Source of the DNA: Candidatus Saccharimonadota bacterium
GTDB lineage: Bacteria; Patescibacteriota; Saccharimonadia; Saccharimonadales; Saccharimonadaceae
Assembly: GCA_017561575.1 (NCBI GenBank)
Contig: JAFZBS010000009.1
Span: forward strand, 1-59,874
Length of the DNA stretch: 59,874 nt
Direction: 5' to 3'
Shown: piece after piece, positions 2 through 59,874 of the stretch
Layout of the letters: each line of letters opens with the position of its first letter
How positions within the stretch are numbered: the stretch's first letter is position 1
Program-made: the position numbers and the translations under genes
The notes under the pieces: model-generated
Databases searched by the model: none
What the model saw: only the letters and a program-made list of their open reading frames with translations
What the model was told of the DNA's origin: nothing

Positions 2-1138
2 GTCATTAATGCCACTACTAACCATGATGGTACTGCCGCTACTGGCTATACTGGTACTAGCTCTACTAACTTTACTATTGGTGCTAAAGCTTCTGCTGAC
101 CAAGCTGCTGGTGACTATACTAATGTGATTACGTTTACGGCGGTAACAAATGCGCCACCTAGGATTTACATGCAAAACATTACCCAGAGCATGCTTGCTA
201 CTCTTATGCCAAACGTAGGTGATTCCACTACTCTTTATGACAATCGCGACGAAAAACCCTATGTAATTGCTAAATTAGCCGATAATAACTATTGGATGGT
301 GCAAAACTTAGACCACGACATCAGGGCAGTATCTGATTTTTACACTAACCAAAACACAGACATTGGCTACAATTCTTCGACTAACTCATACGAAACGGCA
401 TCCTGGGTGCCCATGCGACAAACCTATCCAACTTCTCCAACTAACACTTCTCAATGGTGCCAGAGCGGCACATGGAGAGCCACAAACGGAACATGCCGCT
501 ACAACTATACTCCAGAATCATATGACCCTGGCAATGTTTATTGGAATGGCGTTGAGGATAATACCATGGATTGGGAAGATTATATAGAAACTTGCGATTT
601 TTCTGCTAGTGCAACAATAATTTGTGATGAGACGGAGAACCCTATTGGAGATTATATTGCCAATGGGGGGACAACAATCCAACAATATCATTTAGGAAAC
701 TATTATAATTGGACTGCCGCCGTAGCAATGAATGATAGTAGCTCCGTCGGGAACGGTGTAGTAGTTGATCGCTCCATTTGCCCTGCAGGCTGGACTTTAC
801 CTCACTATATTTCGGGTAGCGGAAGCTTTTCTTCGCTGTGGTCCTTCCAGGGTTTCGGAAGTAGCAATCCAATTAATGGTAACAATAAGCTCTGGACCGA
901 ACCAATTAATTATGTTCTGGGCTCTAATTGGAACGGTTATTATTATGAAGTGGGCAAAAATGGCTCATATTTGTCTTCCTGGACAGCCCCAGATAATGGT
1001 CGAGTTGGAGTAGCAATATTCAGTAACGATTTTGCGTCTGCTAATGCAGATGAATCTAACGGTTACGGTTATTTCGTACGTTGTCTTGCGCGCCCATTTG
1101 CCACCCTACCGCCAACCGGACCCGAAAACCAGAACTAA
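2..1138 (+). CDS. FISUMP-domain surface protein, 5'-truncated by window edge
   Basis: The frame is open from base 2 and runs on from upstream, so this is the C-terminal part of a larger protein. A short Thr/Ala-rich stretch ending FTAVTNAPP matches the segment before the repeats in the protein at 35196 (LNFNAVTNYVP). A FISUMP-type domain (Fibrobacter succinogenes major paralogous domain) follows, with the hallmarks DNRDEKPYVIAKLADNNYW, a YYNWTAAVAMN block, CPAGWTLP and the terminal FVRCLA. Such proteins are abundant on Saccharibacteria surfaces; their function is unknown. The C-terminus is odd: after the domain comes LPPTG, a sortase-like motif, but only five residues follow, with no membrane segment. 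It is therefore either a decayed anchor or chance. FISUMP identity is well supported by two further domains in this window. Confidence 0.85.
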   Translation, partial: VINATTNHDGTAATGYTGTSSTNFTIGAKASADQAAGDYTNVITFTAVTNAPPRIYMQNITQSMLATLMPNVGDSTTLYDNRDEKPYVIAKLADNNYWMVQNLDHDIRAVSDFYTNQNTDIGYNSSTNSYETASWVPMRQTYPTSPTNTSQWCQSGTWRATNGTCRYNYTPESYDPGNVYWNGVEDNTMDWEDYIETCDFSASATIICDETENPIGDYIANGGTTIQQYHLGNYYNWTAAVAMNDSSSVGNGVVVDRSICPAGWTLPHYISGSGSFSSLWSFQGFGSSNPINGNNKLWTEPINYVLGSNWNGYYYEVGKNGSYLSSWTAPDNGRVGVAIFSNDFASANADESNGYGYFVRCLARPFATLPPTGPENQN

Positions 1139-57710: not shown

Positions 57711-58428
57711 TTAGTTCCTCCTCCAAACTTTCACGGATTTTATTATATTTATCTTGCGTCACCGAATGTTTGCCATCGGTTTTTTCTGCACGAATCAACG
57801 AGTTGTCGCTCAGAACCCTTTTATAATTATGTTGCCCAATCAACTGGTCTTTTTCACCATATATTAATACGGTCGGAATTGTGATGTTTGACAAAGTTTG
57901 ATAGTTTTCGCGATTTTTGACGATATTCTCGACCGAGTTTTTAAAGGCCTTTTCTTTAGATAAATCACCACCTTTAGTGCTTACCATGTCCTCAAATGCT
58001 TTCATTGCCGTGTCGAACGCCGGATCGTCCAAATCTTTCTCGGTAAACACTGGTGGTGACACCAAAACGAGTTTAGCGACCATCGACGGGTATTTACTCG
58101 CAAAGCGCGTCACAATCAAAGTCCCCATCGAATGTCCCACCAAAACTAGTGGCGTATTAATATTAAGCTCGTTTAACGAATCATAAAGCGCCTTAATCTG
58201 TTCGTCATAATTATATTCAAGCTCGTCTGATTTTAAAGATTTGCCAGAACCCAGCAAATCAAATGTCACGAACCGCACATCCTTAAGCGATTCTAAACTT
58301 TCAAGGTATTCTAAAACACCCTTAAATGATTCTGAGCTCGATGCGATACCATGGATAAAAACCGCGGTGAGTTTCGATGTATCGCTCTTTAAAAAGTCAT
58401 GTGTTTTTGTAAGCTTTAAGTCATTCAT
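57703..58428 (-). CDS. Alpha/beta-fold hydrolase
   Basis: 241 residues. VFIHGIASSSESFKGVLEYL (oxyanion HG), nucleophile elbow VLVGHSMGTLIVTRFASKYP (Ser at about 99), Asp in VLIYGEKDQLIG and His in KTDGKHSVTQDKY. Cytosolic; substrate unknown (ester or lipase-like). It sits between the DHH and cysS genes with 8-nt overlaps on both sides. Confidence 0.88.
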
Positions 58429-59410
58429 CGCTATCCTCCGCTAATAATTCTGGCACAATTTTAACTAAATCCACCACTACGTCTTCGTAGCTCATATCAT
58501 AAGTCCGAAATCCCGCCGCAAAACCATGACCGCCACCGCCAAAATACCCAGCAATTTTATCAGCTATTTCGGCTTTACCGGAACAACGAATTTTACCGGT
58601 GATTTTACCATCCGGATAAGTCTTAACTGCCACCGCCACTTTTACACCCTCTACCATACGGAGCTCCTCAAGTATTAGTATGTTCGGATTATACTCGTCC
58701 GAAAATTGCGCGATGTCATCCCACGGAATATGTACCGTCGCGAGCATCCCATCCAAAGAATAGTCGATACGCTTGATTAAATCCGCCTTATAATCAAGAA
58801 TTCGGGGTGATTTTTTCATGTATTCACGTCGCTTTTCCTCGAGCTCAGCATTATTGGCACCAAGCTTGGTTAGCTCTGCACAAACTTCAAACGTTCGCGC
58901 CGTCACCGCATCGCTAGTTAGCCCCAAGGTATCAGACATAATGCCTTGCATGATGGCTTCTGCGGCCGGCTTTTGTATCTCCATGCCGAGCTTAGTAGCA
59001 ATTTCGTAAATTAATTCCGCGCAGGCAGATTTTATTTCGATAATACTCTCGTGCGGAAAATCTATATCGTCCGCCGTTTCGTGATGGTCAATTACAAATA
59101 CCGGCGCCGAGTACAGGCGGTTGCGTATCGCCGAGTCGTCAAGCAACTTAGAAAGAAGCACCTTCGCCGCAGTATCTACAATAATATACCCATCAGCGAG
59201 GTAGTCAAATTCATTGGTGATTCTAGACCAGTCATCAAAATAATGTAGGTATTTTGGCACATCTACTGGGCAATATAAACTTACTTCTTTGTCATCCAGT
59301 AAATAATCTAAGGCGATTGCACTTCCTAGCGAATCCCCGTCCGGGTTTTCCGCCTGAATGACGCAAATTTTTTTCTTATCTTTCAAAAAATCACGAAAAT
59401 TGTTGTACAT
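58421..59410 (-). CDS. DHH/DHHA1 phosphoesterase (NrnA/RecJ-like)
   Basis: 329 residues. DHH motifs: AENPDGDSLGSAIALDYLL, VDTAAKVLLSK, VIDHHETADDIDFP (the DHH triad), plus C-terminal DHHA1 with GGGGHGFAAGFRT. NrnA-type enzymes degrade nanoRNA, pAp or cyclic dinucleotide products. ATG is 7 nt after TATAAT (59418-59423). Confidence 0.9.
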   Translation of the reverse strand: MYNNFRDFLKDKKKICVIQAENPDGDSLGSAIALDYLLDDKEVSLYCPVDVPKYLHYFDDWSRITNEFDYLADGYIIVDTAAKVLLSKLLDDSAIRNRLYSAPVFVIDHHETADDIDFPHESIIEIKSACAELIYEIATKLGMEIQKPAAEAIMQGIMSDTLGLTSDAVTARTFEVCAELTKLGANNAELEEKRREYMKKSPRILDYKADLIKRIDYSLDGMLATVHIPWDDIAQFSDEYNPNILILEELRMVEGVKVAVAVKTYPDGKITGKIRCSGKAEIADKIAGYFGGGGHGFAAGFRTYDMSYEDVVVDLVKIVPELLAEDSDE

Positions 59411-59432: not shown

Positions 59433-59525
59433 CTAACGCGTATTAGGTAAACTGACTAGACAGCGAACGAAGCTACCGGTATTACGATTACCATTGGTTT
59501 TATTGTAGCGCATTTCAAAAAAGTC
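59433..59525 (-). pseudogene. C-terminal remnant of a FISUMP surface protein
   Basis: Minus-strand codons read FFEMRYNKTNGNRNTGSF, then VRCLVSLPNTR and stop. The VRCL motif near the end matches the FISUMP C-terminus (YFVRCLA; VRCVAR) and an LPNTR follows where the gene at the window start has LPPTG. No upstream half is present: the frame runs into the promoter of the next surface gene. Likely the scar of recombination. Confidence 0.65.
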
Positions 59526-59526
59526 A

Positions 59527-59559
59527 TTGACAACCCTCCGGGGGGGGGGGGGGTAATAT
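59527..59559 (+). promoter_or_regulatory. Promoter with a 14-G tract between -35 and -10
   Basis: TTGACA (59527-59532) and TAATAT (59554-59559) are separated by 21 nt, of which 14 are an unbroken run of G (59540-59553). Ideal spacing would be 17. Slipped-strand changes in this run would alter promoter strength, as for Bordetella fim and Neisseria porA promoters. ATG follows at 59568, so the transcript would again be leaderless. Confidence 0.7.
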
Positions 59560-59567
59560 ATAAGTAT

Positions 59568-59874
59568 ATGCATAATAATATATATAATAATATATGCAAA
59601 GCTTCTCTTTATGCTTGTCTAAGTCTTGTTGGCGTAACAGTATTGTCTGGTATTTTAGCTTCTAATGTAGTCCCGAATGCTTCAGCAGATTCTTCAGTTG
59701 TTTCTACCGCAACTGTTATTATTCCCACTTCTTGTTCTATGACCGCAAATGTAGATAGTGAACATACTGCTTCACTCATTAATGGTATATATTCAGGAGG
59801 AAATGATTATTATCCAAATGGTATAGGTAAAACCACACTCACTGCCTTTTGTAATGATGCTTCAGGCTTTGCTA
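59568..59874 (+). CDS. Start of a secreted surface protein, truncated by window end
   Basis: 102 codons of an open frame. Signal peptide: MHNNIYNNICKASLYACLSL, then hydrophobic VGVTVLSGILASNVVPNASA. The mature part begins DSSVVSTATVIIPTSCSMTA and has Cys residues and IGKTTLTAFCNDASGFA. Similar leading modules are found in Saccharibacteria FISUMP proteins, and the next FISUMP part would lie beyond the window. Controlled by the poly-G promoter. Confidence 0.75.
   Translation, partial: MHNNIYNNICKASLYACLSLVGVTVLSGILASNVVPNASADSSVVSTATVIIPTSCSMTANVDSEHTASLINGIYSGGNDYYPNGIGKTTLTAFCNDASGFA

Follow-up and report, generated by a model that had tools for sequence, protein, structure and literature searches.

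The DNA analysed here, hereafter the window, comprises contig 5 in full (59,874 bases), one of 11 contigs in an assembly of 622,696 bases that is ~80% complete. Its right-hand end carries the start of a gene for a protein with a signal peptide, beginning MHNNIYNNICKASLYACLSLVGVTVLSGILASNVVPNASADSS..., and a promoter with a long homopolymeric G tract (Table 1). Because the window is the entire contig, this gene is incomplete. The final 73 nt match the paralogue on contig 3 without a difference, and a repeat shared with that paralogue is therefore probably the reason for the contig break.

Table 1 Features of the window discussed in the text.
Feature	Position	Strand	Remarks
C-terminal part of another FISUMP protein	2..1138	+	Other contig end; weak FISUMP match, below curated cut-off
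DHH/DHHA1 phosphoesterase gene	58421..59410	-	Divergent neighbour; conserved in 163/170 genus genomes
Short remnant resembling a FISUMP C-terminus (..NRNTGSFVRCL)	59437..59540	-	Overlaps the -35 element on the other strand; read by eye
-35 element, TTGACA	59527..59532	+	Matched in alignment by the TTGACA of contig-1 and contig-7 paralogues
Spacer, 21 nt	59533..59553	+	ACCCTCC (59533-59539) followed by G14; 17 nt in 7 paralogues
Homopolymeric G14 tract	59540..59553	+	Non-template strand; proposed switch
-10 element, TAATAT	59554..59559	+	Assigned from the sequence and paralogue alignment
FISUMP-family surface protein, N-terminal 102 aa	59568..59874	+	Signal peptide (..SNVVPNASA-DSS..); ends at contig edge
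73 nt identical to the contig-3 paralogue	59802..59874	+	

Pfam and NCBIfam searches with the 102-aa fragment returned only meaningless weak matches and no domain; the C-terminal FISUMP domain (Fib_succ_major, TIGR02145/PF09603) would fall past the contig end. Full-length paralogues on contigs 1, 3 and 6 share homology with the N-terminus, and their later parts match the FISUMP tail at the other end of the window, which itself matches TIGR02145 below the cut-off. The first-pass annotation had called the product a surface protein, and this was borne out by the signal peptide and by the homology to the paralogues, from which the gene is inferred to encode the N-terminus of a FISUMP-family member. 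A role as an adhesin binding the bacterial host cell is speculative and unproven.

On re-reading the sequence, the promoter anatomy given in that annotation (14 G between TTGACA and TAATAT, and a spacer of 7 + 14 = 21 nt) proved exact. The ATG at 59568 lies only 8 nt past the -10 element, so the mRNA would be leaderless or nearly so. The G14 tract is the sole run of at least 7 G or C in the window, where the next longest is 6, and G10 was matched 5 times (overlapping) compared to a mean of 0.05 in shuffled sequences. The assembly has just one other G9, located where contig 6 begins. That run (L010:1-23) has the form G11-C-G11, reads as a Pro-rich segment (PTPTPPPAPPP) of a protein encoded on the other strand, and may be either real or an artefact of the assembly end.

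Paralogous promoters and preferred spacing

The FISUMP family of this genome is large and redundant, and eight loci, including that of the window, share the N-terminus of the window protein. Three of the paralogues read CATTGACAAACCCCAAAGCAAAGAT-TAATATATAAGTATATGCA, with a spacer of 17 nt and with the -10 element, its distance to the start codon and the ATG as in the window. The promoters of paralogues 7a, 1a and 1b (numbered by contig) were assigned as TTGACA-17-TAATAT with the spacer AACCCCAAAGCAAAGAT, that of 1c as TTGACT-17-TAATAT, that of 7b as TTGACT-17-TATTAT, and those on contigs 3 and 6 as TTGAAA-17-TATGAT. These boxes were assigned by eye, and contig 3 has another TTGACT farther out. 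Six of the eight loci agree fully or almost fully in the -10 element and in the 8 nt between it and the ATG. The spacer is 17 nt in all seven other paralogues (7/7), and the G tract and the long spacer are found in the window copy only. By its homology to these promoters the window promoter is taken to be real, with 17 nt as the preferred spacing.

Ordinary TTGACA promoters in DNA of the same genus also showed a sharp spacer peak at 17 nt (28 of the 52 with spacers within 12-24 nt). Spacers of poly-G promoters were instead spread over 14-26 nt, and only 8 of 64 within 12-24 nt measured 17 nt (Fisher p = 2e-6 for the share at 17 nt). The test pools loci of related species that are not fully independent, and G-run lengths are imprecise in short-read assemblies, which can inflate the spread. 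The first-pass annotation had stated that loss of four G would bring the window spacer to its optimum of 17 nt; the paralogues (7/7) and the peak of the genus promoters both place the optimum there, corresponding to G10.

Poly-G tracts across the genus and the order

Tracts of G10 or longer were found in 72 of 174 genus genomes, and the printed contexts repeatedly showed the same arrangement. The pattern TTGAC-N(3-22)-G7-TANNNT gave 71 matches in 45 of the 174 genomes, while the reversed-pattern control gave 0. Order-wide, 40 of 393 genomes had matches, 38 of them in the family of the window, and the reversed pattern matched 3 times. None of 137 distinct tracts had both boxes in the opposite orientation, so the G run always lies on the non-template strand; a poly-C promoter was likewise not found among these 137.

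The recurrence bears on whether the tract could be a sequencing or assembly artefact, arising from two-colour poly-G calls or from mis-assembly at a repeat. The window tract is 321 nt from the contig end, which itself falls in a repeat, contig 6 starts with a G-run, and the tracts of several relatives lie near contig ends. An artefact can nevertheless hardly be the explanation: the upstream sequence is unique, the downstream side is homologous to the paralogue promoters, and the same position relative to the -35 and -10 elements recurs at 71 genus loci from many assemblies against none in the control. The exact length of 14 in the window could nonetheless be wrong by one nucleotide or more.

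Confinement of poly-G promoters to the lineage of the window was considered and rejected, as TTGAC-poly-G-TANNNT occurs in many other bacterial groups, including Spirochaetes, Clostridia, Bacilli, Alphaproteobacteria and Coriobacteriales (L214-L329). Among the matches listed from these groups, 71 of 99 ORFs behind the pattern encode secreted or membrane proteins.

The same site was inspected in the 29 closest relatives as identified by the neighbouring DHH gene. None had a FISUMP start or a G tract there, and a comparison of tract length between species is therefore impossible at the window site. The position is mostly occupied by another gene, and some relatives have FISUMP-tail-like sequence, seen upstream of the DHH gene in L334, L343, L353 and L359. 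Together with the remnant in the window, such tails make it look as though the interval from the DHH gene to the tract gains and loses FISUMP genes, an impression drawn from sequence comparison alone.

Among 112 distinct tracts of at least G10, promoter spacers account for 44, and another 29 fall within the initial 150 nt of a candidate reading frame. The latter form a second class just past start codons, in which 13 are in frame and 16 out of frame as assembled (n = 29); in the out-of-frame cases the long frame opens at another tract length. One family in genome G108, for instance, reads ATGAGCACTAAAATTCGTCT-Gn-TATAAAAGC, which is in frame at n = 10 and out of frame at n = 11. A FISUMP-type homologue of the window gene (L051, G014:C26:4340-4350) carries an intragenic G11 that is out of frame with a conserved continuation. 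The mixture of in-frame and out-of-frame tracts is the pattern expected of working contingency loci and is hard to square with fixed lengths.

These lengths also weigh on the proposal that the tract is not a switch but a fixed spacer element, a stable structural component of a promoter that is either constitutive or regulated. The G run might then, for example, be the binding site of a factor or fold into a G-quadruplex in the non-template strand. The strict strand bias could reflect a structural role of this kind, and certain genomes carry one length several times over, as genome G095 does with its G10 promoters. Spacers nevertheless vary from 14 to 26 nt, and similar paralogous promoters within a single genome differ (G17 and G16 in genome G088, G15 and G10 in G027, G10 and G11 in G029). 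The gene-start tracts, moreover, alter the reading frame and are left unexplained by a role in the promoter. We consider a fixed element quite unlikely.

An N-terminal signal or membrane segment was assigned to 33 of 52 ORFs downstream of poly-G promoters using a simple hydrophobicity rule on the first 70 residues; a few of the 52 come from other genera. In BLAST clustering, 26 of 51 ORFs fall together in a single loose group, which was probably formed by chaining along signal or repeat sequences that its members have in common. The families identified include FISUMP (at least 5, TIGR02145), Listeria-Bacteroides repeats (5), leucine-rich or internalin-like proteins (2) and GNAT acetyltransferases (2), with single cases of a pectate-lyase-like adhesive domain, a GDSL lipase, a papain-family protease and a T4SS pilin. 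A promoter of this type also precedes homologues of the window N-terminus from two further species (L178, L205). Because the class covers many families, the window FISUMP gene is one of several targets.

Two further observations concern individual genes. The T4SS pilin (PF18895; L121:2023-2457, minus strand, G016:C21) lies behind a G14 promoter with a spacer of 22 nt, and a surface part of a conjugation or secretion system may accordingly be phase-variable. Cytosolic-looking proteins downstream of poly-G promoters at L170, L179, L180, L186, L188, L198 and L200, two of which are GNAT acetyltransferases, share a short N-terminal W/Y-[DE]-x-x, sometimes followed by EVPF.G; the W/Y-[DE]-x-x motif could be a targeting signal.

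Mismatch repair, proposed mechanism and known systems

MutS1 was not detected in any of 20 genomes (the assembly itself and relatives), and MutL was above the cut-off in none of 20; among 14 control genomes, 11 exceeded the cut-off for each. When mismatch repair is lost in Neisseria, the switching of mononucleotide repeats increases 100- to 1000-fold (PMC3639595). In other families of the order, the members sampled likewise lack a detectable MutS1 and yet are mostly without poly-G promoters, so missing repair is not enough to cause the tracts.

The same evidence applies to the suggestion that the window promoter is decayed and permanently silent, its homopolymer having grown by slippage without MutS/MutL and the gene being off for good. 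A 21-nt spacer is poor, the gene family is large and redundant, and mismatch repair is apparently absent, all of which would suit decay. The -35 element, -10 element, start codon and signal peptide are all intact, however, and tracts of this class cluster at promoters and gene starts. Loss of repair alone would not produce such promoters, given that the sampled members of other families, which lack MutS1, are mostly without them, and a long G tract stays reversible. Permanent silencing is accordingly regarded as very improbable.

We instead hold with considerable confidence that the window promoter, which serves the gene of a FISUMP-family surface protein, is phase-variable through the length of its spacer, both slippage and the effect on expression being inferred. 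Three features of a porA-type spacer-length promoter are met: the homopolymer lies between recognisable -35 and -10 boxes, a realistic length change (to G10) puts the spacer at the 17-nt optimum, and a surface or secreted component is controlled, as indicated by the signal peptide and FISUMP-family N-terminus here and by the signal or membrane segments in the class as a whole. Phase variation, as first proposed for this locus, is likewise supported by the 71 genus matches against 0 in the control, the spread of lengths, the restriction to one strand and the mostly secreted or membrane targets. Because G14 sits exactly between the boxes and relatives show this layout at dozens of genes, mostly for surface or secreted proteins, Saccharibacteria of this genus very probably switch surface genes by gain and loss of G.

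Slipped-strand mispairing in replication would add or remove G and thereby shift the distance between the -35 and -10 elements by single bases, while a sigma-70-type RNA polymerase needs a spacing of ~17 bp. Cells with about 9-11 G (spacer 16-18) would thus be expected to transcribe the FISUMP surface protein, most strongly near G10, and cells in the assembled state (G14, spacer 21) would show weak or no transcription. The apparent lack of MutS/MutL in the lineage would leave slippage uncorrected and fast. On and off cells would then coexist in the population, and binding to the host cell, or evasion of recognition by phages, predators or the host, may vary as a result. For the window locus, slippage, the off or weak state at G14, the on state at about G10 and the surface role all remain inferences.

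As regards the parallel to Neisseria drawn in the first-pass annotation, the poly-G spacer mechanism has been demonstrated for porA of N. meningitidis, where the tract lies between the -35 and -10 elements, expression depends on its length and the switching rate is higher in a mutS mutant (PMC3639595). The window promoter resembles porA in having a homopolymeric G run in the sigma-70-type spacer of a surface-protein promoter, with tract lengths of ~10. It differs in that its start is leaderless or nearly so, its protein is unrelated (FISUMP), length change and its effect on expression are only inferred, the lineage is apparently without MutS/MutL, and many different genes of the genus carry the tract. 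In the fim promoters of Bordetella pertussis, which are activator-dependent and control surface structures, a poly-C homopolymer sets the spacing. The window promoter would share this control of spacing in surface-structure promoters but has poly-G on the sense strand. G-tracts in pilus genes of the gut bacterium Bifidobacterium breve undergo reversible intragenic replication slippage (PMC9187656). These tracts in surface genes resemble the gene-start class of the genus and, unlike the window promoter, act through the reading frame and not through promoter spacing.

No report of phase variation in Saccharibacteria, TM7x or Patescibacteria was found, although only open-access literature was covered and this is weak evidence of absence. 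The kind of mechanism is already known from porA and from Bordetella fim; its occurrence in Saccharibacteria and the number of genes apparently using it seem to be the new interest.

On a broader scale, we are inclined to believe, with less assurance than for the single promoter, that this gut Saccharibacteria family of episymbionts, apparently lacking MutS/MutL, possesses a genome-wide 'phasome' of poly-G promoter spacers and gene starts. Such a phasome would stochastically reshuffle surface proteins, internalin-like repeat proteins and even a T4SS pilin, making each epibiont population a mixture of surface types for finding or keeping host cells. If true, it would be the first in Patescibacteria known to us. 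The poly-G tracts may also partly explain assembly breaks near the surface genes of such genomes. How ultrasmall episymbionts choose, hold and change their hosts is largely unknown. Being legible in sequencing reads, an on/off code of this kind would allow phase variation in Patescibacteria to be tested in metagenomes that already exist, and would indicate directly which surface proteins are important for host interaction.
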